Source of the DNA: Ruminococcus sp.
Lineage (GTDB): Bacteria > Bacillota > Clostridia > Oscillospirales > Ruminococcaceae
DNA length: 35,268 bases
Direction of reading: 5' to 3'
NCBI GenBank assembly: GCA_021199305.1
Contig: JAJQIH010000019.1
Span: 1-35,268, forward strand
The position numbers and the translations under genes were made by a program. Shown here piece by piece: positions 8,593-29,515 of the stretch. Position 1 is the first letter of the stretch. The number at the start of each line of letters is the position of its first letter. The notes beneath the pieces were generated by a model. That model saw only the letters and a list, made by a program, of their open reading frames with translations, did not search any database and was not told the origin of the DNA.

Positions 8593-8621
8593 TTGACTTT
8601 GTTTCCATATACTGGTAAAAT
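8593..8621 (+). promoter_or_regulatory. Sigma-A-like promoter of the cas3 remnant
   Basis: TTGACT and TAAAAT are separated by 17 bases, 57 bases upstream of the cas3 ATG. Between promoter and gene the octamer GAGAAAGT occurs twice, 20 bases apart. Confidence 0.65.
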
Positions 8622-8677
8622 ATAGTTAGCGAGAAAGTAGAAATGCTAAGTGAGAAAGTGAGGGGGGACGTAAAGCT

Positions 8678-9607
8678 ATGAATTTATGTACGGCGCTTTG
8701 GGCGAAAAAAGAAAGGGAAGATAACCTCCAGACTAAATGGTTGCCTCTTTTACAGCACCTTGAAGATACAAGCCGAGTGTGCGGCTTTTTGTGGGAACAT
8801 TGGTTGTGCGACGGGCAACGTGAAATCATCGCAGAAAATAACGATCAGGAAACAGCAAAGAGAGTTTTGTTGTTTCTCGGAGCGGTTCACGACTTAGGCA
8901 AAGCAACCCCTGCTTTTCAAATAAAAGAAAGCGGAATACGGGAAATCGATATTGAACTTTTAAACCGCCTTGAGCTGGCTGGGGCAAGCGAAATTTCAAA
9001 CCTGATACTCGCAAACGGTGGAAAAAGTCCTCATAGTATTGCAGGTGAAGCGTTGCTGAGACGGTTTGATGAGAGATTTAAATCGCCTGAAGATATTTCT
9101 TCAATCGTCGGAGGCCACCACGGCCGCCCGGTAAGCAGGGGTATAATCGAAAAGCAGTTTACCGCTTATAGAATGAATTACTATCAAACGGAAAAAGAAA
9201 CCGATTCGCTGTGGCAATTATGGGATAAAACCCAGAGATATATTTATAACTGGGCGCTCGGCATAGCTGGATTTAAATCGGCTTCAGAAATACCACCTCT
9301 TTCCTGTTCCGCACAGGTACAGGCATTAGGATTGCTGACTATGGCGGACTGGATTGCCAGCAATACGAATTATTTTCCATTGATAGATCTTGATGAAGAT
9401 GCTGTGGTAGATTCAGATGCACGATTTGAAGACGGCATAAGTAAATGGTTTAAAAGCTATGGGTGGACGCCAGATGGGTTACTTGATACTGAAAAAGAAT
9501 TTGAACATCGTTTCGGTTTTCTGCCCAGACCCGAACAAAAAATTTATCTCATTGGAGCAATTCACCCCTACTTTAGAAGTTGGGGTCTTTTTGCTCCAAT
9601 GAGATAA
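8678..9607 (+). pseudogene. cas3: CRISPR-associated Cas3, HD nuclease domain only (truncated)
   Basis: Cas3 is the nuclease-helicase that shreds targets bound by type I Cascade. The 309-aa frame has the N-terminal HD domain. HLEDT lies near residue 26, the catalytic HDLGK at 71-75 (with ATPAFQ after it), HSIAGE follows, and HH at 147-148 lies in GGHHGRP. The layout, with a long linker ending in FGFLPRPEQ, is most like type I-E Cas3. That is the point where the SF2 helicase should begin, but after PEQ the frame runs into a perfect hairpin (9543-9608) and stops. Helicase, other cas genes and a CRISPR array are all missing. The promoter looks intact, so an HD-only protein could still be made. 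I rate a decayed locus more likely than a functional standalone Cas3''. Confidence 0.8.
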
Positions 9608-9608
9608 A
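9543..9608. repeat. 66-nt near-perfect hairpin at the cas3 break; possible reverse-strand terminator
   Basis: The 18-base arm TTTATCTCATTGGAGCAA (9543-9560) is matched exactly by its complement at 9591-9608. An inner stem, ACCCC with GGGGT plus four more pairs, closes on a short loop. On the reverse strand the structure is followed by TTTTTT. It may be a terminator for reverse-strand genes, a MITE-like insertion or an element end. Confidence 0.75.
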
Positions 9609-9665
9609 AAGCCACTTCACTCTTGCTTAAAATTAGTGTTCAATTTCCTTTCTTTTCACATCTTC

Positions 9666-9701
9666 AAAAATAAGAAAAGCACCGTGCCTTTTCACGATGC
9701 T
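9666..9701 (-). terminator. Terminator of the dinJ-brnTA-HTH operon
   Basis: On the reverse strand a 9-bp stem (AGCATCGTG with CACGGTGCT, one G-U) and 6-base loop is followed by TTTCTTATTTTT. It begins 16 bases after the stop of the truncated HTH gene. Confidence 0.8.
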
Positions 9702-9716
9702 TCTAGTTTTAGTTAT

Positions 9717-9875
9717 TCAATTGTTTCTCTCATCTGTAGACTCTCTTCTTTCAATGATTTTTCCGATAAGCTCAGTTTCAAATTCAATCTGTGCTCTTTC
9801 AGCTATGCTTACTTTGTTTGTGTCGCTGATATAGTCCTCAAACGTAGTAAATTTTTCACCATTGATTTCAATCAT
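9717..9875 (-). pseudogene. N-terminal remnant of an HTH-type antitoxin
   Basis: A 52-codon frame not long enough to stand out by length. It starts at an ATG 4 bases past the brnA stop, with GGGAG (inside the brnA end) as ribosome-binding site, so translation is coupled. The peptide begins MIEINGEKFTTFEDYI and continues to EFETELIGKIIERRE. That resembles the segment just before the helix-turn-helix in HigA-like Xre antitoxins, in which a sequence such as KGLTQ would follow. Here the frame diverges and stops, so the DNA-binding domain is missing, probably by frameshift or deletion. No partner toxin is visible. Family assignment is from memory of the N-terminal pattern. Confidence 0.5.
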
Positions 9876-9879
9876 AATA

Positions 9880-10095
9880 TCACTCCCACGATAGAGACAA
9901 TTGTCGATGATTTTTTATACAATCTGTAAGGTACAAATTGATGAGTGTCTGATAGGGTATTTTCTTGTCAGAGGACATTTCAGTAAAATAATTTACAATA
10001 TCGTCATCAAGAGTAATAGTATTTCCTTCATTAAGTGCTTTTGCATATGGGTTTCTTCTTGGATTCAAATTTTCAATGTTATATTCCTCTCTCAT
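9880..10095 (-). CDS. brnA: BrnA-type antitoxin
   Basis: This 71-aa antitoxin should neutralise BrnT and repress its own operon. The N-terminal part contains NPYAKAL, and the C-terminal ribbon-helix-helix-like DNA-binding segment contains ITLDDDIVNYFTEM and IPYQTLINLYLTDC, both characteristic of BrnA. The ATG at 10095 is chosen over a longer upstream frame because GGAGGTG sits five bases before it and the family starts with short sequences of the form MxEEYN. It begins 4 bases after the brnT stop. If brnT is truly inactive, brnA is an orphan antitoxin. Confidence 0.85.
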   Translation of the reverse strand: MREEYNIENLNPRRNPYAKALNEGNTITLDDDIVNYFTEMSSDKKIPYQTLINLYLTDCIKNHRQLSLSWE

Positions 10096-10099
10096 AAAC

Positions 10100-10387
10100 T
10101 CACCTCCATGCTTCATATTGTTTGATTTCGTTTCTAGTTGCCTTTCGAGCAGATATAATTCTAACAACTTCATCTGATTGACGATAGCAATGTCACACTA
10201 TGAGCAGATTTGCTTTACGGTTGATGCCTATTAGTAAAAACCTATCCTCGTTTTCTGAATGGTCTGGGTCATCGAACAAAATTGCGTTGTCGTCACAGAA
10301 TACAGTCTGTGCTTCTTCAAACGAAACTTTGTGTTTCTTTTTGTTTATAGTGTTTTTGCTTTCGCCCCATTCAAATTTGTACTTCAA
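10100..10387 (-). pseudogene. brnT: BrnT-family toxin with an in-frame TGA at codon 65
   Basis: BrnT (DUF497) toxins are small RelE-fold ribonucleases. From a TTG start at 10387, the frame reads KYKFEWGESKN, KHKVSFEEAQTVF and DPDHSENEDRFLLIG, then LLIV and a TGA at 10193-10195. After the TGA the same frame continues as HCYR then VVRIISARKAT, exactly the expected BrnT C-terminus, and stops just before brnA. Firmicute homologues have VCHCYR here, so the TGA replaces a cysteine codon by one base change. A 64-aa product would lack part of the catalytic fold. This looks like a recent single-nonsense inactivation. Recoding is possible but unsupported. Confidence 0.8.
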
Positions 10388-10413
10388 AAGTAAGTTTCTC
10401 CCTTCTGATCCAT

Positions 10414-10677
10414 TTACTCTTCTATTAACTCATGTTCTACTAATGGTCTAGTTCCGTTTTCAACACCATCAATAATTTTAGTAAGATAACGCTTGTTGCT
10501 TTCAGAAGAAAGAGGTTCAGCAGTAATTTCAAATGGAATACGATGTTCTCTGCTAACTTTTGTCAAAAAGATTGACATAGCTGTTGATATAGTAAGTCCC
10601 ATTTCATTTAATGTGTTTTCGGCTTCACGTTTCACATTTTCATCAATGCGAAAACTAACTTGTGTTGTATTTGCCAT
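10414..10677 (-). CDS. RelB/DinJ-family antitoxin, no adjacent RelE/YafQ partner
   Basis: This 87-aa protein of the RelB/DinJ family has a ribbon-helix-helix N-terminus (TTQVSFRIDENVKREAE, then LNEMGLTISTAMSIFL) that dimerises and binds DNA, followed by a C-terminal tail that would wrap a RelE/YafQ-type toxin. The ATG at 10677 is preceded by GGGAG. A longer upstream frame starts inside the promoter and is rejected. A strong promoter lies just upstream. The next gene downstream, 26 bases away, is brnT rather than a YafQ toxin, so it may be an orphan, a hybrid pairing, or the regulator of the whole reverse operon. Confidence 0.85.
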   Translation of the reverse strand: MANTTQVSFRIDENVKREAENTLNEMGLTISTAMSIFLTKVSREHRIPFEITAEPLSSESNKRYLTKIIDGVENGTRPLVEHELIEE

Positions 10678-10699
10678 AATATCAACTCCCTTCGATATT

Positions 10700-10728
10700 A
10701 TTGTATCACATTTGATGTTGTTTGTCAA
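10700..10728 (-). promoter_or_regulatory. Sigma-A promoter of the dinJ-brnT-brnA operon
   Basis: On the reverse strand, TTGACA (10728-10723) and TACAAT (10705-10700) are separated by exactly 17 bases, 22 bases before the dinJ-like ATG. Confidence 0.85.
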
Positions 10729-10775
10729 GTATTTGAGCAGTATTTTCTATTACTCAATCGGCTTTGAAATGTTAA

Positions 10776-11042
10776 CTACACACGTTCATAATGTGACCAC
10801 ATACTAATGACCTTGACAATCTTCTTATCCTCTATAACCTCGTACACAAGTCTGTGCTTTATGTTGATTCGCCTGGAATATAATCCTTGCAAATTGCCTA
10901 CAAGCTTCTCATATGGAGGCGGATTTTGAAACGGATTGCTTTGAATGACTTCGATTAGTAATTTCGCAGTATCAGATAAATGAGCAGCCTTCAGTTCCTG
11001 AACGTCTTTAGCTGCTGCTTTTGTAAGGACTACATTGTACAT
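10776..11042 (-). CDS. yoeB: YoeB-family mRNA interferase toxin
   Basis: This 88-aa RelE-fold toxin cleaves mRNA in the ribosomal A site. Residues matching the known YoeB active site are present: E46 in PYEKL, R64 in KHRLVYEV, and H84-Y85 in the C-terminal WSHYERV. The fold and length match the E. coli protein. The ATG at 11042 overlaps the yefM stop by one base (TAATG), typical of coupled antitoxin-toxin translation. A TTG two codons upstream is less likely. The toxin looks fully intact. Confidence 0.93.
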   Translation of the reverse strand: MYNVVLTKAAAKDVQELKAAHLSDTAKLLIEVIQSNPFQNPPPYEKLVGNLQGLYSRRINIKHRLVYEVIEDKKIVKVISMWSHYERV

Positions 11043-11290
11043 TACCAATCTACCTCATCAGCCGAAACACATTCCGATACAGATGTGTTTTTTCCGTCTA
11101 AAAGCTTTTTCTCCATATTTGGAATAGATGTCAAGTAAAGAGTTTCCATAAGTCCATTGTAATCATCTTCGCTAAGAAGTACAGCAGAACCTTCCTTTGT
11201 GCTGATACTCACAGGCTCGTTGAAACAAATTGTATTCTTTAGGATATTGTAAAGGTCCTTGCGGAAATTTGTTGCATTTGTGTTTATCAT
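11042..11290 (-). CDS. yefM: YefM-family antitoxin
   Basis: This 82-aa Phd/YefM antitoxin has an N-terminal DNA-binding half (INTNATNFRKDLYNIL, then EPVSISTKEGSAVLLSEDDY) and an acidic C-terminal tail that binds YoeB. The start at 11290 is supported by GAGGTGG upstream. A longer frame would begin in the promoter. Family members bind the operon promoter and repress it, more strongly with the toxin bound. Confidence 0.92.
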   Translation of the reverse strand: MINTNATNFRKDLYNILKNTICFNEPVSISTKEGSAVLLSEDDYNGLMETLYLTSIPNMEKKLLDGKNTSVSECVSADEVDW

Positions 11291-11309
11291 AAATAACCAC
11301 CTCTTTAGT

Positions 11310-11338
11310 ATTATAGCATACGTTTTAACGTACGTCAA
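11310..11338 (-). promoter_or_regulatory. yefM-yoeB promoter with palindrome between -35 and -10
   Basis: On the reverse strand, TTGACG (11338-11333) and TATAAT (11315-11310) are spaced by 17 bases. The spacer holds TACGT-TAAA-ACGTA (11332-11319), a good candidate for the YefM autoregulatory operator. Confidence 0.85.
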
Positions 11339-11381
11339 GCAAGTATGAAAATATTTTTTCTTGTTACGCCACTATTATTAT

Positions 11382-11576
11382 ATGAAGAAATTCAACACAA
11401 CCTCTTCGAGGGTTGAACGAGCGATACGCCACGCCATTGAAATTGCCTGGGACAGAGGAGATATTGACACGCTGAACTCGTTTTTCGGCTACACAGTTGA
11501 CGTTGCCAAAGGCAAACCGACAAACAGCGAGTTTATTGCTCTGATTGCGGATAGGATTAGGCTGGGGTTGAGGTGA
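11382..11576 (+). pseudogene. C-terminal fragment of the sporulation regulator Spo0A
   Basis: The 64-codon frame reads [19 protein letters not shown], then AWDRG, FFGYTV and [18 protein letters not shown]. This is the final third of the Spo0A effector domain, including the DNA-recognition helix with [10 protein letters not shown] and the conserved GKPTNSEF. The receiver domain and the first part of the effector domain are missing. No ribosome-binding site precedes the ATG, and the bases just upstream in another frame read VTPLLLY, like the residues normally found there. I read it as a decayed or transferred end of a spo0A-like gene. A short expressed DNA-binding protein is possible but not supported by start signals. 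Confidence 0.75.
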
Positions 11577-11648
11577 GCAAGATTCATATACAGAAACAGC
11601 AGCAGACACTCCGCCCTACTGGTAAACAAAGGCGAGCGGCCAAAGCAA

Positions 11649-11684
11649 AACCACACCACCGTGATAATACACAGCGGTGTGGTT
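11649..11684 (-). terminator. Imperfect hairpin terminator between convergent fragments
   Basis: The arm AACCACACC pairs with GGTGTGGTT around an inner 3-bp stem, with two mismatches. On the reverse strand it is followed by TTGCTTT, so it may end the reverse frame at 11714. Confidence 0.5.
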
Positions 11685-11713
11685 CTATTAGATTAGATTT
11701 AAAATGCCAAATC

Positions 11714-11980
11714 TTACTCCTCTTGTCTTCTAGCAAGAGTATTATCTATTTTATAGATTCGTTTCAATACTTCGTTTAGCTGCCTTTGCAACTCAGCTCT
11801 AGCATTTCTGGCAGGTTCTATTTTCTCGTCTGCATTGGCATCTCTTACCTTTTGTTCTTCCTCAGCCTTGTCATTTAAAGCTGACCGTTTAGCCCTTATA
11901 GCTGAAATCTCATCGTCCGTGTAGTATCCGAAATTGATACAAAAATACCGCCCAGAATAGTGTGAATGTGGGCAAAACAA
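11714..11980 (-). pseudogene. C-terminal fragment of an unrecognised coiled-coil protein
   Basis: A reverse frame of 88 codons with no ATG and no ribosome-binding site. Its only candidate start, a TTG, lies at the edge of a terminator-like hairpin. The peptide is highly charged and helical (SALNDKAEEEQKVRDANA, then EKIEPARNARAELQRQLNEV), compatible with a coiled coil, and ends KIDNTLARRQEE. It looks like the tail of a longer gene from a lost mobile element. I do not recognise the family. Confidence 0.4.
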
Positions 11981-11981
11981 A

Positions 11982-12023
11982 GGCTTTCAGCGAGGTTTTT
12001 GACCTACTGAAAGCCGATTTTTG
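11982..12023 (+). terminator. Hairpin GGCTTTCAG/CTGAAAGCC
   Basis: A perfect 9-bp outer stem (11982-11990 with 12007-12015) with inner AGG/CCT pairing is followed on the forward strand by GATTTTTGTTTG. On the reverse strand TTTGTTTTGCCC follows, so it could work in both directions. It separates the 11714 fragment from the ydbC cassette. Confidence 0.6.
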
Positions 12024-12158
12024 TTTGTATGCGATTTTTCGCTCCGAGCGCGAATCCACTCCAAATGAAACCTTCCGATAAGAAAAATTGAAAAGTATGA
12101 AACCCTCGGACGGCTCGGAGATGGAATAATTAAAATGTAAGAGAATAATTGAAATGTT

Positions 12159-12383
12159 CTACTTACCGAGTGCCTCACCCAGAAGACTATATAGAGTTCT
12201 CGCCTCGTCCTCGGTGAGGGTAATGCCCTTGCCCATCTTTTCATGCTCCGGCGCCCAGTCGCGGATGTCGTACTTCGGTGCTGCACCGTTCCAGGATACG
12301 AGATTCAGTTCCTTCGACCAGCCTTTTGGACTGGTGGAGATTTCGCCAAGTTGCTGTTTGATTTCGTATTTAATGTCTGCCAT
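12159..12383 (-). CDS. YdbC-like protein with PC4 single-stranded DNA-binding domain
   Basis: This 74-aa protein matches the YdbC/PC4 group. KGWSKELNLVSWN is followed by PKYDIRDWAPEHEKMGKG, the conserved core of this small beta-sheet domain. Family members bind single-stranded DNA and are structural relatives of the eukaryotic coactivator PC4. Their bacterial role is poorly defined. The ATG has GGAGG upstream. It is the last gene of a three-gene reverse cassette, 14 bases after the 88-aa gene. G+C looks visibly higher here than in the surrounding AT-rich fragments, which suggests transfer. Confidence 0.9.
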   Translation of the reverse strand: MADIKYEIKQQLGEISTSPKGWSKELNLVSWNGAAPKYDIRDWAPEHEKMGKGITLTEDEARTLYSLLGEALGK

Positions 12384-12397
12384 AAAACAAGTCCTCC

Positions 12398-12664
12398 TTA
12401 TCCCTCGTCATCCGTGGTGGTAGCGAGAAGTTCCTTTGCCTCGCTGAGGCGCAAATCCCAGTACTTTTGCAGCATCTGGATAATAACCGCCTCCTCAACA
12501 CCAGCTTCTCGCATAGCCAGAATCGTTTTCTCAATACCAAGCATATGTTCTTCAATAACTGCGTCATCAACAGCCGCATCCTCATGGTCTCTTACTGTGG
12601 CTCGAATTTCTTCGAGCAATTCACCTCCGAATTTAGCGAGACCTTCTTTCCAATTATCACTCAT
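12398..12664 (-). CDS. Hypothetical acidic helical protein, 88 aa
   Basis: I do not recognise this family. The protein begins MSDNWKEGLAKFGGEL, is rich in Glu and Ala, and appears entirely helical, with AAVIDD-like acidic stretches and EAVIIQMLQKYWDLRLSEA near the end. A GAGGAG ribosome-binding site supports the ATG. It lies between the GIY-YIG gene (27 bases) and the ydbC-like gene (14 bases), so the three are almost certainly one transcript. A small acidic protein beside a nuclease could be a partner or inhibitor, but this is only inference. Confidence 0.75.
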   Translation of the reverse strand: MSDNWKEGLAKFGGELLEEIRATVRDHEDAAVDDAVIEEHMLGIEKTILAMREAGVEEAVIIQMLQKYWDLRLSEAKELLATTTDDEG

Positions 12665-12691
12665 GACAAATCTCCTCGTCGCTCTTCTTGT

Positions 12692-13540
12692 TTATCCTTC
12701 TTCTTGATTCAACGACACTCCATCCGCATCATGCCATAGTGCATTGCCATTCAGAGCGGCTCCGCCGACCAAACCGGCCGCTGCACTTGGACTTGACATT
12801 GGCACATCCACCAGCAGCTCATGTGTACTCGAAATCTTGTCCTTGTATTTCTCCCTGGTTCTCAGCACATTACGTGGGCAGCTCTTCGTGGTTTCCGGAT
12901 TGAGCATACTCCCTTTGAACACAACAAATCCCTCAGCAGTCCGCTGACCGGTTGCCTTGTAACCTTTGTACTCCATATACAGCATCGGATTCGAGCTGTC
13001 TATAGGAGAGTCTTTCGGATCCGGTTTTTCAAAAACCTTGTATCCCATCACGCCGACAACCAGAGCCGTGTAGTCTATGAAGTCCTCCATCTCGCTCACG
13101 GTTTCTTCGGACGGATTACCCGGATTCGGGTCATTACCGTTGCGCACCAAATATCGACCGGCTTCCTGCGCCATGTTGCAGAAACGGTTCTCAAGGTAGC
13201 TTATCTCCGTGGGTCCGAGAGAGTTATTCGTGGTTGTGACCATAACCGCTTCTGTCCAGTAGTCTATAGAGTTGTGTGGCTCCTGGATGCGGTAAAGCAG
13301 ACCTTGCCCGTTCTTTCTGGTACCTGCCTGTCCGATATAGACAACAGGGTTTTGTTCCTTGTCCGTGCCAAATAGAAAATACACGCCGCTCTGTTTGAGG
13401 ATGCGCATATCCTTGCAACGTTCGAGCAGTGTCCTTGGCACCTTATAGGCGACGCCAACCCAGTTGGCAAGAGAACACTTCATCCTGCCGCCGGGTACGT
13501 CGTCCATTAAAAATAGTTTCATTGCTTTACCGCGAGCCAT
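12692..13540 (-). CDS. GIY-YIG nuclease family protein with DUF4357-like C-terminus
   Basis: This 282-aa protein has an N-terminal GIY-YIG nuclease-like domain. SGVYFLF lies at 51-57 (GIY equivalent) and VVYIGQAG at 66-73, a candidate catalytic Arg is at 84 in LLYRI, and a candidate metal-binding Glu is near 117 in SYLENR. A C-terminal DUF4357-type segment around 200-250 reads TAEGFVVFKGS. Proteins with this pairing are widespread in bacteria and phages, often in variable regions, without a settled function. The start is supported by GGGGG eight bases upstream. It heads the reverse cassette with the 88-aa and YdbC-like genes and shares their higher G+C. Confidence 0.88.
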   Translation of the reverse strand: MARGKAMKLFLMDDVPGGRMKCSLANWVGVAYKVPRTLLERCKDMRILKQSGVYFLFGTDKEQNPVVYIGQAGTRKNGQGLLYRIQEPHNSIDYWTEAVMVTTTNNSLGPTEISYLENRFCNMAQEAGRYLVRNGNDPNPGNPSEETVSEMEDFIDYTALVVGVMGYKVFEKPDPKDSPIDSSNPMLYMEYKGYKATGQRTAEGFVVFKGSMLNPETTKSCPRNVLRTREKYKDKISSTHELLVDVPMSSPSAAAGLVGGAALNGNALWHDADGVSLNQEEG

Positions 13541-13681
13541 AGCGGAAACCCCCTTGCTATATTATTCCTTGCTTAATGCTTGTAAGTGCGCCATATGGAC
13601 AAAATCCAAAAGTGACCGATTTACCGATATTTCATCAAAGAGCGTTACACCACCGGTAATGCCCTTTTTCTTTTCAGATGA

Positions 13682-13710
13682 TTGACTTAATCGAATTTGT
13701 ATGATAGAAT
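13682..13710 (+). promoter_or_regulatory. Promoter of the 279-aa gene
   Basis: TTGACT and TAGAAT are separated by 17 bases. The first in-frame ATG (13697) falls inside this promoter, which is why a downstream start is preferred. Confidence 0.75.
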
Positions 13711-13759
13711 AAGTATGAAGGGTGTAAGATATAAATTGACATTTGTAGGGGTGAACGAG

Positions 13760-14599
13760 TTGAGTATCATAATTGAAAGCAAAATGCTACATCGCATTGA
13801 TAGTTACACGACAAACACTTTGAATCCAGACACTGGACTTCCATATGATGATTCGTGGATAGTCTTTTCCTTAAATAATGAGAACTACCGTATGCGTGTC
13901 GGAAAAGAAAATGGTGGTGCATATGTGCTTAAAGTCGGAAAGTTCCATTTGAATTGGAAAATGGCTTTGGGAGATTTTATTGATTATCATAAATCCTCCG
14001 GTCATAAAATGGTTTTAGCGTTGAGTCAGGAATCCCTTGATGATGCCTTGAACAGCTACCATGGTCATTCGTGCCGAGATCGTTTCCTCAGAAATTACGA
14101 AAATCCCATTTTAATTCACAGCACCGCGCAAATATGTTATGAGCATATAATCAAAGACGATTGCTTGAAATCTTGGAATTGTCTTTATAAAGAGGGCTTT
14201 TTCACGGACGAAGAGCCAATCGGCAAGCTATTGGGTGATCCATTGGAGTTGAGAGACTATATTCTTTTTGGCTCTGGTGTTACTGGAGAAATAGTTGTCA
14301 GCTCTAAAGAAAAACACAGAATAGAAATGGACTGGAATCAGCCGTATCAACCGGGAGCCAGATTATATTTTGATATGAGACGAATTGCAGAGGACGGACT
14401 CCTTATTCGTGACGGTAGTGAAATAAAGGTAAAGGATTTTTTGCCATTGAAGCCATATCTTATTTGGGCTGCAACCGCAAAAGAGCTCAATCTCGAACAA
14501 GGAGATGTAACACCCAAGCAATTTGCTGAAAGTGCTGATTGCTATTTTCGAGATCATTTTCGTCCCAATTTTTGCTACGATGTGTATATAGAAAATTGA
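13760..14599 (+). CDS. Unrecognised protein, 279 aa; faint ADP-ribosyltransferase-like motifs
   Basis: I cannot assign this protein to a named family. The start is taken as TTG at 13760 because AGGGGTG lies six bases upstream and the earlier ATGs overlap the promoter. A GTG at 13751 is an alternative. The C-terminal half looks like a distinct domain. It contains ILIHSTAQICYEHI and LKSWNCLY, then PIGKLLGDPLELRDYI, GARLYFDMRRI and PYLIWAAT. An H-S-T segment followed by a later LYFD strand is reminiscent of ADP-ribosyltransferase/RNA 2'-phosphotransferase-like folds, but that is a weak pattern match. There are no membrane segments. The gene stands alone with its own promoter between two reverse clusters. 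Confidence 0.75.
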   Translation: MSIIIESKMLHRIDSYTTNTLNPDTGLPYDDSWIVFSLNNENYRMRVGKENGGAYVLKVGKFHLNWKMALGDFIDYHKSSGHKMVLALSQESLDDALNSYHGHSCRDRFLRNYENPILIHSTAQICYEHIIKDDCLKSWNCLYKEGFFTDEEPIGKLLGDPLELRDYILFGSGVTGEIVVSSKEKHRIEMDWNQPYQPGARLYFDMRRIAEDGLLIRDGSEIKVKDFLPLKPYLIWAATAKELNLEQGDVTPKQFAESADCYFRDHFRPNFCYDVYIEN

Positions 14600-14723
14600 T
14601 ATGTGATATAACTTTACTTAGTAATCATTGTTGCAATTATGATTTATCAGCAAAATCATATGCTATTAATTATCCCTCAAATATATATCGCAACAGTACA
14701 GCATTGACAGCGCAAAAATTCCC
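14600..14723. other. AT-rich spacer, no feature recognised
   Basis: There is no gene between the 279-aa gene and the hairpin array. On the reverse strand a short open frame ends at 14670, but it is composed largely of the repeat array and has no start signals. Confidence 0.5.
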
Positions 14724-15056
14724 CGTGACGATGCGTGACGGTCGTGACGATGTTTCTGAGGTCTCTAAAATACCGTCACCATCGACACACATCGTCACGC
14801 TTTTAATTTCGGGATCATGAACTATCGACATTATCAGCATTATCGAACCCCGATTGTGCTGAAAATGCTGATAGTTCAGATTTCTCGGAGTATGGATTTT
14901 GCACCTTTTGGGCTTTTTGTGAGACAAAAGGTGCAAAAAGCCCAAAAGACAGATTTCTGCAACTCTCGGAACGTGAACTTTGCACATTTTCCGCATTTTG
15001 TAGCTGCAAAGTGTGCAAAATGCGGAAAGTTCAGATTTCTCATAATGCAGGGAGTG
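14724..15056. repeat. Array of four 9-bp-periodic hairpin units
   Basis: Units lie at 14724-14799, 14818-14878, 14897-14948 and 14975-15032. In each, one half consists of two or three 9-base words in tandem and the other half carries their complements, again with 9-base phasing but in swapped order. The last three units are each followed by CAGATTTCT (14877, 14950, 15032), and two of these are followed by CTCGGA. Word sequences differ completely between units. On the reverse strand the pattern translates as three-residue repeats such as HFAHFA and KCGKCAK. I recall similar stretches inside gut Firmicute mobile-element genes, but cannot confirm it. Confidence 0.75.
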
Positions 15057-15072
15057 TGATAAATCTAAATTA

Positions 15073-15215
15073 CTATGGTTTTTGTGGATTTAATTTCTTC
15101 GTTGCGTCAACACATTTCTGCTGAAAAATTACTGTTTCAATCTTTATTGCAAAAAATGCAGCAATGCTCGCATAAAACATCAATATACCGCCCTTGCTTT
15201 CAATAGCTTCAAAGC
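15073..15215 (-). pseudogene. Duplicated 43-codon fragment of the DUF3169 gene
   Basis: The segment 15085-15215 repeats 16163-16293 with four mismatches in 131 bases, in the same orientation and 1078 bases away. The reverse frame stays open (ILMFYASIAAFFAIKIETV, then KCVDATKKLNP) and stops at TAG 15075-15073. It is a partial copy of residues about 137-178 of the DUF3169 protein, located just after the operon. There is no start signal. Confidence 0.9.
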
Positions 15216-15280
15216 AATCTGAGAGTGCCGTTTTGCATTATTAAGAAAGCTCAAAATGAAAGCTCAAAAATAATCGCCCA

Positions 15281-15856
15281 TCATTGCGGCATATACCACC
15301 ATGAATTTAAGCCGTAAAGGTAGGTTCTTGAGCCTTTTGGCATTTGAGTAAGAGCGTTAAATACGTTGTAGTAATCGCCGAAACCCATACCAATGCTGAT
15401 AACGCCAAGTGCTGTGAAGAAGATAAGCGATGGGAATATCATACCGATTATGTAAGGAATCGCGCCAAATACAATGTTCGGCAGAAGCGACATAAAAATA
15501 AACCTCGACTTTGACATAGTTTCTGTACCGACTACAAAAATCAAGCCTTGCTTTAAGTTTGTGTACAGGTATACATCCTCTTTAAAACAAATTGCGTGCA
15601 AAAATTCGTGAGGGAACAGAACCAGAACAGACGCTACACATCCAAGCGGCAACGACCAGCCGCCAATGTAGTCCCAGCAGCGTATTAACGCTGGAATCGC
15701 AAGCAGTATCATTATGATAATACAGCCGATATTTGCAATTATTGCCAGTTGTTTTGTGCTGTTTACCTCCTTGAATTTGTGTGCATTTTCTTTGTGCTCG
15801 CCGTGTGGAAGCGAGTCAGGGTTCAGGTCGTACTTTCCGCAATAATGTAATTTCAT
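15281..15856 (-). CDS. DUF3267 membrane protein, putative metallopeptidase
   Basis: This 191-aa membrane protein matches DUF3267, a group related to site-2-type zinc peptidases. FPHEFLHAICF near residue 85 supplies an HExxH zinc motif inside a hydrophobic region, and four or five membrane segments are apparent (about 37-60, 70-90, 115-135, 140-160). The C-terminal GFGDYYNVFNAL places a conserved Asp where the third zinc ligand is expected. The ATG is supported by GGGAG. It is the third gene of the reverse HTH-DUF3169-DUF3267 operon, 27 bases after the second. A substrate cannot be inferred. Peptidase activity is family inference, not shown. Confidence 0.82.
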   Translation of the reverse strand: MKLHYCGKYDLNPDSLPHGEHKENAHKFKEVNSTKQLAIIANIGCIIIMILLAIPALIRCWDYIGGWSLPLGCVASVLVLFPHEFLHAICFKEDVYLYTNLKQGLIFVVGTETMSKSRFIFMSLLPNIVFGAIPYIIGMIFPSLIFFTALGVISIGMGFGDYYNVFNALTQMPKGSRTYLYGLNSWWYMPQ

Positions 15857-15883
15857 TTTAATCTCCCGCTTTCATTTGTTCTT

Positions 15884-16675
15884 TTAAGAAATCTTGTTTC
15901 CCGCCTTTGAATATTTAAACGCTTCTATGCAATACGTCGACTGATTGACAATCCAGATAAGACATACCACCAGAGATGGTAAGAATCCTATTCTGAAAAC
16001 GAGTGCGCAAACGGCAAGGACTGTTGATAAAATAACGCAAGCTGTATTGGTAACAGTATATGACCTGTACGCACATTTGCCAATCATAATTTTTTCGGCT
16101 TCGTCACAGCTATCCATCCACTTCTTCTGAAATCTCGTGTCATAAACCGACGCTGTTTTTTCTGGATTTAATTTCTTCGTTGCGTCAACACATTTCTGCT
16201 GAAAAATTACCGTTTCAATCATTATTGCAAAAAATGCAGCAATGCTCGCATAAAACATCAATATACTGCCCTTGCTTTCAATAACTTCAAAGCCTTTGGA
16301 GTATGACGCTACTATCAGAAAGTAAGACAGAATTGTTGCAATGTTTGTAATCCAGATGATAATAGAATGCTGCTTGTCAATTAAATCCGGAGTTTCTTCG
16401 TCCTCTCCGTCCCAGGAAACAATCAGCTTCTTAGCATTCCTGTAAATTGGAACGCAGACAACAGGCAGGATAATTGCTACCGCAAGCAGCAGCCAGGGAG
16501 CTATATTCGCTGCGAAAAATTCTCCCGCACCCCTTATCCCTCCAGCCATCGAATCGCTTCCAAATTTAACAGAGCAAAAGCCTATTACTATGCCGATAAC
16601 CAGACAGCAAATCATTATAACCATAAATTTAGGCAGAGCCTTTTTGTTCGCATTCCTGATCTCATTGTTATCCAT
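15884..16675 (-). CDS. DUF3169 family membrane protein
   Basis: This 263-aa integral membrane protein starts with a charged segment (NANKKALPKFM) and has paired membrane helices at about 17-38 and 58-80, 107-125 and 135-155, and 210-255. Between them lies a soluble loop, IYRNAKKLIVSWDGEDEE, characteristic of DUF3169. Proteins of this family typically sit directly after a small Xre regulator, as here. Their role is unknown. The start is supported by AGGAGGAAGAGG and overlaps the HTH gene by 8 bases, so the two are translationally coupled. A 131-bp internal piece has been copied to 15085-15215. Confidence 0.87.
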   Translation of the reverse strand: MDNNEIRNANKKALPKFMVIMICCLVIGIVIGFCSVKFGSDSMAGGIRGAGEFFAANIAPWLLLAVAIILPVVCVPIYRNAKKLIVSWDGEDEETPDLIDKQHSIIIWITNIATILSYFLIVASYSKGFEVIESKGSILMFYASIAAFFAIMIETVIFQQKCVDATKKLNPEKTASVYDTRFQKKWMDSCDEAEKIMIGKCAYRSYTVTNTACVILSTVLAVCALVFRIGFLPSLVVCLIWIVNQSTYCIEAFKYSKAGNKIS

Positions 16676-16883
16676 TTTCCTCTTCCTCCTGTAAATAAAA
16701 TACTTCTTCCACAGTTACGCCGCACACCCTTGCAATAGTTAACGCAAGCGTAACAGACGGCGAATAATCGCCCCTCTCTATAAGGCTGATTGTCTGCCTT
16801 GAAACGCCGCACAAGCGCCCCATTTCCTGCTGATTAACATTGAGTGCTGCCCGGCGTTCTTTTAAACGGTTTCGCAATATCAT
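16668..16883 (-). CDS. Small Xre-type HTH regulator
   Basis: This 71-aa protein is essentially one helix-turn-helix domain. NRLKERRAALNVNQQEMGR is followed by CGVSRQTISLIERGDYSPS, the recognition helix and the ERG/YSPS turn typical of YgzD/YozG-like regulators, ending with the LTIARVCGVTVEEVF helix. It leads the DUF3169-DUF3267 operon, and two palindromes between promoter and start codon are the natural target, implying autorepression. A GGAGG site precedes the ATG. Confidence 0.92.
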   Translation of the reverse strand: MILRNRLKERRAALNVNQQEMGRLCGVSRQTISLIERGDYSPSVTLALTIARVCGVTVEEVFYLQEEEENG

Positions 16884-16900
16884 TATACTACCTCCGAAAT

Positions 16901-16973
16901 GACAATCTTAATTGTCGAAATGACAACTATCTTTGTCATTTTTGATTATACTACTGCCGAATCCATTTGTCAA
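16901..16973 (-). promoter_or_regulatory. HTH-DUF3169-DUF3267 promoter with two operator palindromes
   Basis: On the reverse strand, TTGACA (16973-16968) and TATAAT (16950-16945) are 17 bases apart. Downstream lie two palindromes sharing the half-site TGACAA/GACAAT: ATGACAA-N6-TTGTCAT (16920-16939) and GACAAT-N4-ATTGTC (16901-16916). Both are in the transcribed leader, where binding by the small HTH protein would block elongation or initiation. Confidence 0.85.
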
Positions 16974-17077
16974 TAGTTTTTTGAAAATTGGTGCAGGCTT
17001 GTTTTTGTTCTCACAATATGATATTATAAGTTTAGCGAAGAAGGCTACAATTTGTAATGAGATGAGGATTTGATGAT

Positions 17078-18010
17078 ATGATTATTCAGACTGGTATGAG
17101 AACGGACATTCCTGCGTTCTATTCAGAATGGCTTGAGAACCGTATCAAAGAGGGATTTGTCTGTACAAGAAATCCGTATTATCCAAATCAGGTTACCAGA
17201 TACTCACTCTCTCCAGATGTGGTGGATATAATCGGTTTCTGCACAAAAAATCCTGCACCGATGCTCGAACGTATGGACGTGTTGTCTCCTTATGGTCAAT
17301 ACTGGTTTGTGACGATTACACCATATGGAAAGGAAATCGAGCCGAACGTTCCGCCAAAGGAAAAAGTAATTGATGATTTTATCAGGCTTTCAAAAATTGT
17401 TGGTGCGGATAGTATGGGCTGGCGGTACGACCCGATATTTCTCACTGAAACATATACAATCAAGCGACATATCTGTGATTTTGAAGAAATAGCAAAACGA
17501 CTTTGTGGATATACGCACAGCTGTGTCATCAGCTTTATCGATCTTTACGAAAAGACAAAACGTAACTTTCCACAGGCAAGGTCAGTTGAAAAAGCCGATA
17601 AAAGCACACTTGGAAAGGCACTGATTGAAATTGCAAATAAATATGATATAACAGTTCGTCCTTGCTGTGAGGGAGATGAGCTTGCAGTTTACGGTGCAGA
17701 TTGCAGTGGCTGTCTTACGCAAGATATATGGGAACAGGCAATTCACGGCAGACTTGACATTCCAAAATCAAAAATCAAGTCACAGCGTTCTCAATGCACC
17801 TGCGTTTTCGGCAGAGATATAGGGCATTACAACAACTGCGGTCACTTGTGTAAATACTGCTATGCCAATGCTGACAGCAGGCTTGTGTTGCAAAATATGA
17901 AACAGCATGATCCGAAATCTCCGTTTCTGATTGGTCACAGTATGCCCGACGATGTGATTCATATTGCACAGCAAAAATCTTGGGTGGACAGTCAGCTTAC
18001 ACTTTTTTAA
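17078..18010 (+). CDS. DUF1848 protein, Fe-S cluster-binding
   Basis: This 310-aa protein matches DUF1848, a group with radical-SAM-like cysteine clusters. The N-terminal part has RTDIPAFY, the middle contains FCTKNPAP and YWFVTITPYG, and the C-terminal third has a Cys cluster: CCEGDEL, DCSGC, then CTCVFGRDIGHYNNCGHLC and YCYAN. Such proteins are thought to bind an iron-sulfur cluster and have been linked to DNA lesion or nucleotide chemistry by weak similarity to spore photoproduct lyase-type proteins. That link is inference. A GAGGA ribosome-binding site lies 9 bases upstream. It is a single-gene unit between the HTH operon (divergent) and tRNA-Ser. Confidence 0.85.
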   Translation: MIIQTGMRTDIPAFYSEWLENRIKEGFVCTRNPYYPNQVTRYSLSPDVVDIIGFCTKNPAPMLERMDVLSPYGQYWFVTITPYGKEIEPNVPPKEKVIDDFIRLSKIVGADSMGWRYDPIFLTETYTIKRHICDFEEIAKRLCGYTHSCVISFIDLYEKTKRNFPQARSVEKADKSTLGKALIEIANKYDITVRPCCEGDELAVYGADCSGCLTQDIWEQAIHGRLDIPKSKIKSQRSQCTCVFGRDIGHYNNCGHLCKYCYANADSRLVLQNMKQHDPKSPFLIGHSMPDDVIHIAQQKSWVDSQLTLF

Positions 18011-18091
18011 GCGAAATCAGATACATAAAGGCTCTCATCCATTGACAATCAGCACGAATCAGACAGCACCTCCAAAATCCGAAAAAAGCAC

Positions 18092-18120
18092 TTGCATTCG
18101 GTTTAAAAGTGTGCTATAAT
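18092..18120 (+). promoter_or_regulatory. Promoter of tRNA-Ser
   Basis: TTGCAT and TATAAT are separated by 17 bases, 53 bases before the tRNA. Confidence 0.8.
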
Positions 18121-18173
18121 CTAAATCACGGTGTCCTCGCTATGTTAAACGCTGGCAGGTTCACTTACTTTTT

Positions 18174-18262
18174 GGAAGCGTATCGAAGTGGTCATAACGG
18201 GCCTGACTCGAAATCAGGTAGCTCTCACGGGCTCGTGGGTTCGAATCCCACCGCTTCCGCCA
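18174..18262 (+). tRNA. tRNA-Ser (CGA anticodon)
   Basis: The acceptor GGAAGCG pairs with CGCTTCC. The anticodon loop CTCGAAA is flanked by CCTGA/TCAGG. A long variable arm is typical of tRNA-Ser, the T-arm is GGGTTCGAATCCC, the discriminator is G, and CCA is encoded. The gene marks the right edge of the accessory region, but no direct repeat of its 3' end was found inside the window. Confidence 0.96.
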
Positions 18263-24781: not shown

Positions 24782-26110
24782 CTATCCAACTATTCTTCTT
24801 ATTGCTGAAATGGAATTGTATGTAGCGAATGTGCTGACGTAAGAGTAAACAATTCCTGTGTAGGAATTTTCTGCGTGAACCATCATTCCGTTGCCAACAT
24901 AAATTGCAACGTGATATGCAGGGCTTCCAAAGAAAATCAGATCTCCAGGCTGCATATCCGAGTAGCTTACAGAATATCCGTAGGAAGCTTGCGACGAAGC
25001 CTTGTGCGGAAGCGATATACCTATCTTGGAATAGCAGTACATCGTAAGTCCCGAACAGTCTGCTGCGTACTGGCTTGAAGCGCCCCAGACGTAGGAGCCG
25101 CCGACCATACTTTTTGCTGTCGCTACAACTATATCAATATCGCTCGAGGTTGCTGTGCTTGAGCTGCTGCCCGATGAGCTTTCGGTAGTTGTGGTAGTAG
25201 TTGTCTGTTCATCAGAATCGCTTGTCTGCGCTTCTGTTGTCTGCTCTGAACTGCTGTTGTCAGCAGCCTTGGTAGTTGTCGTTGTGGTAGTAGTTGTAGT
25301 TGTTGTGGTAGTAGTCGTGGTTGTGGTAGTGGTTGTCGTTGTAAGAGTTTTCTTTTGCTCCGCAATATCCTCGCTTTGCTCTTCAAGCTCTTCCTTCAGA
25401 GCATTTAACTCTTCAATTGTCATATCGCTTTGCTCACGAAGCTCCTCAAGCTCATCATTCTGATCCTGAAGGTCCTGCAGCTGAGTTTTATACTCGCTCG
25501 ACTTCTCACTAAGCTCCTCAAGCTTAACCTCTAACTCCTCCTGAGCTGCTTCGTACTCGTTTTTCGTTTCAACCAGATCGTCAATCGCCTGATCGTCGTG
25601 TTCAGCAACACGGGTTATAAGCTCGGTTCTCATCATCATATCAAAAAAGTCTGACGACGAAAGGAGAATAGATATGTACGAGCTGGTATCATTCATATAC
25701 ATTGCACGAAGACGTTGCTTGAAGTCAGAAACTCCCGTTTCAATTTCCTCTTTTTTATCCTCAACCTCCTGCTGAACCTCTCTCATCTGAGCGTCAGTGT
25801 CGGCGATTTCAATAGCGAGCTGCTCGCTGTATTCTTCGATGGTTGAAATCTTTTGTAAAACGACTTCAATCTTTTCTTCAATAGCTTCCTTCTGAGCTTC
25901 TGCGTCCTCAATGTCAGAATTTGCGCTGTTGATTTTCTCATCTATTTCCTCAGCCTGCTTTTCAAGCTCCGCTAACTGCTCCTCGTATGATGCGTCCTCA
26001 GGTACAGCGGATGATGTAATTCCGCTTGTAGCAGTAAGGGATATAGAGCATACTATTATTAAAGCCGTCAAGGCTGAAATTACTCGTTTGATTTTTAATC
26101 GTTTAGACAT
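24782..26110 (-). CDS. Secreted NlpC/P60 peptidoglycan endopeptidase with coiled coil and poly-Thr linker
   Basis: This 442-aa PcsB/CwlO-like cell-wall hydrolase cuts peptide stems of peptidoglycan during growth or division. A signal peptide (about 1-35, basic then hydrophobic ISALTALIIVCSISLTA) is followed by a long coiled coil (about 40-250, rich in Glu/Gln/Lys). Then comes a run of 24 Thr at 257-280, a Ser/Thr linker, and the NlpC/P60 domain from about 325. Catalytic residues are C352 (ADCSG), H400 (YHVAIY) and H412 (MVHAEN). The coiled coil is the part that FtsEX controls in PcsB/CwlO; ftsEX is not in view. The ATG has an AGGAGG site. A WalR-like sequence precedes it. Confidence 0.93.
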   Translation of the reverse strand: MSKRLKIKRVISALTALIIVCSISLTATSGITSSAVPEDASYEEQLAELEKQAEEIDEKINSANSDIEDAEAQKEAIEEKIEVVLQKISTIEEYSEQLAIEIADTDAQMREVQQEVEDKKEEIETGVSDFKQRLRAMYMNDTSSYISILLSSSDFFDMMMRTELITRVAEHDDQAIDDLVETKNEYEAAQEELEVKLEELSEKSSEYKTQLQDLQDQNDELEELREQSDMTIEELNALKEELEEQSEDIAEQKKTLTTTTTTTTTTTTTTTTTTTTTTTTKAADNSSSEQTTEAQTSDSDEQTTTTTTTESSSGSSSSTATSSDIDIVVATAKSMVGGSYVWGASSQYAADCSGLTMYCYSKIGISLPHKASSQASYGYSVSYSDMQPGDLIFFGSPAYHVAIYVGNGMMVHAENSYTGIVYSYVSTFATYNSISAIRRIVG

Positions 26111-29386: not shown

Positions 29387-29515
29387 AGTTGATAATGGAC
29401 AATGGATAATTATCAACTATCAATTATCAACTATTAACTATCAACTTACAACTATCACCTATCTGGGCAGTTCTATATCGGCTGCCCTTATAGACTTTTT
29501 AAAGAGCTTTAAAAA
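29387..29515 (+). repeat. Structured argG-argH spacer: 14-bp tandem repeats and hairpins
   Basis: An inverted repeat, AGTTGATAAT (29387-29396) with ATTATCAACT (29409-29418), runs into three 14-base units starting ATCAACT (29412, 29426, 29440) and a fourth broken unit at 29454. Then come GGGCAG/CTGCCC (29465-29487) and the palindrome TTTTTAAAG-AG-CTTTAAAAA (29496-29515). It could be a processing or attenuation site. Confidence 0.75.

Follow-up and report, generated by a model that had tools for sequence, protein, structure and literature searches.

The locus raises the question of what kind of element keeps the format of its hairpins while their words are replaced. In the window, by which we mean the whole 35,268-nt stretch of DNA analyzed here, four adjacent inverted units of 9-base words (U1 to U4) occupy positions 14724–15041, and this array is a real observation. 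Each word is built of six near-constant bases plus a variable triplet, with three words per arm and the second arm inverted. A score for such 3+3 inverted 9-phased words was matched by none of 100 dinucleotide shuffles in any unit (z of 6.4, 9.0, 8.9, and 9.8 for U1 to U4), which bears out the earlier note's description of four units of 9-base words, and the four top-scoring tiles of the whole window were those of the array. The array also folded strongly as DNA (z = −8.4; 0/100 shuffles equally good). Self-match at lag 9 was 0.39, 0.44, 0.53, and 0.50 in U1 to U4 and was the highest among lags 1–20 in U2 to U4, while U1 peaked higher at lag 19 (0.44) because one of its words has 10 bases, not nine.

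The units fall into two families. U1 (14724–14801, plus strand), an origin-like hairpin of AAA_25/RepA type, has 5′ words GTGACG starting at 14725, 14735, and 14744, with ATGC, GTC, and ATG in the triplet positions after them, and inverted words CGTCAC at 14774, CGACAC at 14783, and CGTCAC at 14793 across a loop of about 20 nt. The other three are origin-like hairpins of DUF3987 type: U2 (14818–14886) has words CATTAT with triplets CGA and CAG, U3 (14893–14959) has CTTTTT/CCTTTT with GCA and GGG, and U4 (14974–15041) has CATTTT with GCA and CCG. The note had held that words differ completely from unit to unit over constant flanks; this is true of U1, whose words are wholly different, but U2 to U4 are mutually related, with 35 of 69 columns invariant, and neither flank is found at all four units, CAGATTTCT being confined to U2 to U4 and CTCGGA coming after U2 and U3 only. 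The former is the reverse complement of AGAAATCTG, which adjoins the stop codon in intact loci elsewhere, and because intact locus L229 reads TGA-AATCTG at this position, stop codon included, the gene-sense of U2 to U4 is the minus strand. Two pattern searches were of little use: TTCAGATTTCTCGGA with 2 mismatches allowed occurred at 9 places in the window's own genome compared with 8 for the reversed control, which is uninformative, and the flank pattern GTTCAGATTTCTCGG occurred over genome contigs in at least 117 stretches across many phyla, which we took as chance.

Relatives of U1 were found at the 3′ ends of genes for AAA_25 ATPases (L158, L159, and L203, and by eye L012 and L278). A DNA search of 15 genomes of the genus with 601 bases gave many weak matches, one of which, L012, lies directly after an ORF resembling by eye the end of an AAA_25 ATPase, on an integrase element; another, L014, was read and dropped. 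Two of the relatives came from plasmid records: L158 has the gene order integrase (by eye), NikA-like, AAA_25, hairpin, Mob_Pre, and L159 carries the hairpin inside the last coding part of its AAA_25 gene, an exception among the Clostridia loci read, most of which have it at the stop codon or a little beyond. The pattern GTGACG(NNN)GTGACG(NNN)GTGACG occurred at 25 places in 14 of 197 genomes of the order and its reversed control at none. Protein relatives of the L158 ATPase (E 1e-20) were present in 32 of 147 order genomes, and of 30 such loci among the matches listed, 21 had an array at the 3′ end that none of 100 shuffles equaled (L195–L205, L208, L209, L211, L213, L214–L216, and L218–L220, with L213 weak and L195 and L196 identical). 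No passing array was found in the other nine (L206, L207, L210, L212, L217, and L221–L224), although the stretch tested may miss the 3′ end in L221–L224, and L207, L210, and L212, which failed the shuffle test, showed GTGAC-type repeats by eye. The AAA_25 profile matched the RepA helicase structure 1g8y (E 1.4e-9), which we take to be RepA of RSF1010.

The association extended to viral contigs. Among the best 80 of 124 viral AAA_25 loci, reaching down to 27% identity, 74 were scored, and 21 of these scored at least 23 at period 9, compared with 1, 5, 6, 1, and 2 at periods 7, 8, 10, 11, and 12; at least 26 was reached by 14 loci at period 9 and by 0, 0, 1, 0, and 0 at the other periods. Control stretches inside the viral AAA_25 genes (n = 72) had a mean of 18.3 and a maximum of 23.2, and 53 of the 74 loci were below the threshold of 23. 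The number of independent viral cases is smaller than these counts because related rows stand on both sides (L362, L363, L364, and L370 among those passing, L310–L315 among those failing). Viral words included GTGACG, GCGACG, TACTAT, GAAACG, TAACTT, TCGTTC, CGTTGR, CCATTG, TGCAAC, and ATAGAG, so that the statement that format is kept and content replaced holds over a large family whose viral members change words and keep the 9-base phase. In the 21 passing viral loci the array started within 20 bases of the stop codon in 8, inside the gene and 106–154 bases before the stop in 8, and 42–220 bases after it in 5, a looser placement than in the Clostridia loci. By eye, a like layout occurs in another phylum, on Streptomyces plasmid NZ_CP107792 (L272, 2980–3278), where several 9-base TGACAGAAC words, direct and inverted, are flanked by a YfjI gene on one side and, on the other, by a helix-turn-helix gene beside an integrase.

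The second family led to a different protein. A covariance model built from U2 to U4 matched 13 of 297 genomes of the bacterial family at E ≤ 0.01, own genome included. Of the 12 loci read, five (L229, L230, L235, L238, and L253) had the hairpin at the stop codon of a long DUF3987-type ORF, confirmed in both cases tested (E 1.7e-85 and 7.1e-83), and 37–45 nt ahead of a small ORF that is xis-like by eye; near relatives of U3 (L235/L253) and of U4 (L229/L230) are among them. The hairpin adjoined a DUF3987 fragment in L233, and six loci were orphans without a helicase (L231, L232, L234, L237, L242, and L255). The intact element L260 has the order DUF3987, hairpin, Mob_Pre, integrase, and the last two genes point to mobilizable elements. 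When loci were drawn by protein instead, 14 of 148 genomes of the family gave 15 with DUF3987, of which nine had an inverted array (0/100 shuffles), one of them, L394, being a fragment, and three more (L388, L391, and L392) had direct 9-phased arrays only (0/100 shuffles), their inverted sets being nonsignificant with 4, 11, and 17 of 100 shuffles as high; this makes 12 of 15 loci with an array. Neither type was found in L389, L390, and L393, although the stretch tested may miss the 3′ end in L389 and L390. As a hairpin finder, a CATTWT ×3 pattern was rejected: it matched 8 of 295 genomes with control matches in 4, and the six loci read were not such hairpins. The AAA_25 and DUF3987 profiles showed no detectable relation (probability 0.3 per cent, the DUF3987 side consisting of only 3 close sequences), and no DUF3987 gene was confirmed in viral contigs. 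One DUF3987 gene, L387, has GTGAC words around its 3′ end, with the core seen in AAA_25-type words, a sign that unrelated initiators may have traded word sets or that a host factor may be common to both.

What we observed directly is the position at helicase 3′ ends, the word format, the element context, and the replacement of words. From this we infer that the hairpins are probably replication origins of integrative or mobilizable elements, and that the window holds one origin of AAA_25/RepA type (U1) and three of DUF3987 type (U2 to U4), all orphans without their helicase genes. The words would be iterons, recognized by a DNA-binding region, probably the C-terminus, of the helicase encoded beside them; two helicase oligomers may load head-to-head, the spacer or an extruded stem-loop would melt, and the excised circle would then replicate. 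The replacement of words would follow from initiator specificities that differ from lineage to lineage, and the 9-base phase may be held by the geometry of adjacent subunits. Spacers between the word sets are short and not uniformly AT-rich by eye, and loops measure 3–36 nt in the clear hairpins. Similarity of words was only weakly related to similarity of proteins (r of 0.15 and 0.22). Words seemed at first to covary with the C-terminal domain (24 loci, partial r 0.57, 0/999 permutations as high), a result that was discarded because it came from near-identical rows and from C-termini that run into the array; without such near-duplicates and without coding overlap, the remaining 14 loci gave no signal that words track the C-terminal rather than the ATPase domain (partial r = −0.007, 1058/1999 permutations as high).

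Several known systems resemble this arrangement. RSF1010 is a mobilizable replicon whose RepA (1g8y) the AAA_25 profile matches; it has a RepA helicase, oriV iterons, and ssi hairpins, with a separate RepC for the iterons and primase binding to the ssi hairpins. In phage-inducible chromosomal islands (PICIs) the origin follows directly on the 3′ side of the initiator gene and has an AT-rich region between two sets of iterons (PMC6092414), and the C-terminal domain of SaPI Rep reads iterons directly downstream of its own gene (PMC7581432). Our hairpins share this place immediately behind an initiator helicase gene and the two sets of short iterons around a spacer (PMC6092414, PMC7581432), but their initiators are AAA_25/RepA-like and DUF3987 proteins, and they have a 9-base phase, inverted 3+3 sets, and short loops where an AT-rich region is described for PICIs (PMC6092414). 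Similarly, Cch2 uses its C-terminal domain to bind repeats that come shortly after the cch2 gene, a putative SCC origin (PMC7581432); there direct repeats suffice for binding and inverted ones are dispensable, whereas here inverted sets are usual and some loci have direct ones only. The archaeal plasmid pRN1 depends on a stem-loop that comes right behind its replication gene, and, as in our hairpins, structure rather than sequence is conserved, between conserved flanks, which is the pattern of kept format and replaced content that the earlier note had pointed out; unlike ours, it depends on an archaeal replication protein, and the part of the report available describes no word phase and no detectable specific binding (PMC4234260).

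Simple iterons leave one feature unexplained, the order of the triplets. In U3 the triplets read GCA,GGG in one arm and GGG,GCA in the other, and in U4 GCA,CCG and CCG,GCA, so the swapped order that the earlier note ascribed to all units is exact in these two; U1 and U2 fit swapped and unswapped order equally (4/6). Other exchanged examples are AGT,GGT / GGT,AGT, GTC,ATG / ATG,GTC, and CAA,CTT / CTT,CAA. We kept hairpins with at least 14 of 18 6-mer pairs, dropping 5 AAA_25 and 8 DUF3987-type distinct rows below this limit, 4 and 3 duplicates, and one unparsed row. In-register pairing of the 6-mers was 94% in 15 distinct AAA_25 hairpins and 84% in 11 distinct DUF3987-type hairpins, compared with only 41% and 36% for the triplets, which rose to 69% and 59% when exchanged. 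Exchanged-order matches exceeded those of permuted pairs (62 vs 31.6 and 39 vs 25.3; 0/5000 each), values that related rows inflate. An order t1,t2 ... t1′,t2′ gives equal spacing for both word pairs and two alternative 15-bp registers, and the exchange may make a bistable stem, avoid a perfect palindrome, or come from homogenization in slipped stems. As a universal rule it was rejected: L345 is an unshifted palindrome, L318 and L342 are partly so, and L185 and L186, with 17–18 of 18 6-mer pairs intact, scarcely match in their triplets, whichever order is used. Swapping is therefore unlikely to be the core function, because it is absent in other lineages.

These pairing data bear on whether the hairpin instead acts in mRNA, as a terminator, 3′-end stabilizer, or attenuator between the helicase and the next genes. 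Its location at the stop codon and ahead of the next gene would suit such an RNA element, as would the strong folding, yet we consider it unlikely: no T run follows the 3′ arms by eye, triplets are mostly mismatched in the register in which 6-mers pair, L185 and L186 maintain nearly all 6-mer pairs with hardly any triplet match, and the direct 9-phased repeats of L388, L391, and L392, which have no significant inverted set, fit DNA words better than an RNA stem.

Returning to replication origins, we asked what such hairpins represent in the window. The own genome is tabulated as 99.96% complete, and searching it for DUF3987 relatives (E 0.001) and for L158-like ATPases (E 1e-20) yielded none; its AAA_25 matches on other contigs (458 and 468 aa) are probably RadA and DnaB, judged by protein size only. 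Because no such helicase was found in this genome, the window hairpins would be orphan origins. Related genomes carry further copies of the cluster, which consists of left flank, U1, linker, U2, and U4-type units, in unrelated gene surroundings. Its left part (left flank, U1, linker, and U2; 14679–14886, plus strand) recurs at 76% identity in G431:C39, with U1 and U2 linked as in the window. In G498, copies on C24 and C12 have U1 collapsed to a few bases between kept flanks (seen in L231 1490–1620 and L298 1500–1580), and in G495:C12 U4 is accompanied by a U3 with a partial deletion and by the end of U2. Promoter-like TTGACA/TATAAT sequences follow the G431 and G498:C24 copies by eye. The window cluster is thus itself a repeated intergenic unit of this bacterial family, for which a relic, a moving repeat, and a selected decoy are candidates. 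A selected multi-origin site is an unlikely proposal: a small chromosomal repeat would gather origins of two unrelated initiator families and either titrate incoming initiator helicases, as an iteron decoy against mobile elements, or hitch-hike as a satellite that several helpers amplify. A wider rule would underlie this: a single 9-base origin grammar would serve two helicase families that show no detectable similarity, with words replaced and with phase, inversion, and (in many lineages) the swapped order of triplets kept.

Other features were seen around the cluster. A 155-base direct repeat (92% identity) lies at 15076–15230 and 16154–16308, 1078 bases apart, its first copy abutting the right flank of the cluster and its second within a minus-strand DUF3169 ORF. 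The ORFs of 8600–18170 resemble a variable island between conserved genes, with tRNA-Ser at 18174 and no integrase by eye. Farther on, repeats at 25270–25342 code a long threonine run in the ORF at 24782–26110, and a tandem TATCAAC heptamer (7.6 copies, 80% match) lies between two ORFs at 29411–29463.

Three remaining explanations fare worse. Relaxase sites are often hairpins, and Mob_Pre genes lie downstream in L158 and L260, which would be consistent with the Mob_Pre relaxase using the hairpin as an oriT or single-strand initiation site; this is rather improbable, however, given that in two families the array goes with the helicase gene and that the next large ORF in L159 resembles by eye a recombinase rather than a relaxase. 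Slippage templated by the hairpin, in 9-base registers, might make and homogenize words as a functionless mutational product, and the excess of exchanged-order triplets over permuted pairs, inflated as it is by related rows, would favor it. The position at helicase 3′ ends over very distant loci, set against the in-gene control mean of 18.3, and the keeping of GTGACG words over many elements make such slippage very improbable. Least probable of all is the earlier idea that the array is a diversifying element or belonged to a decayed gene as its variable part. Three-residue repeats can indeed be read on the minus strand, but most intact Clostridia loci read have the array at the stop codon or beyond it, related units sit at helicase gene 3′ ends, the flank (CAGATTTCT/AGAAATCTG) is a stop-codon flank, and near-identical loci have the same words. 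An active copying process confined to the array likewise lacks support, as words were identical, with no turnover, in the four near-identical pairs seen (L229/L230, L235/L243, L236/L253, and L195/L196), while the note was right about codon-length phasing and about membership in gut Firmicute mobile elements.

In the literature covered, which excludes subscription papers, we found no description of 9-base-phased word hairpins, as judged from titles and the openings of abstracts, or of such a grammar in two helicase families, nothing on DUF3987 with iterons, and nothing on iteron origins with a helicase in integrative mobilizable elements (IMEs) of Clostridia. If the hairpins are replication origins, their grammar of three 9-base words, a spacer, three inverted words, and a helicase 3′ end would make it possible to recognize, from sequence, the origins that mobilizable elements, phages, and satellites carry in gut bacteria, and words could be matched to initiators. 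Incompatibility or decoy effects would then become testable, and odd ORFs with three-residue repeats, such as those on the minus strand here, would be readings through origins.
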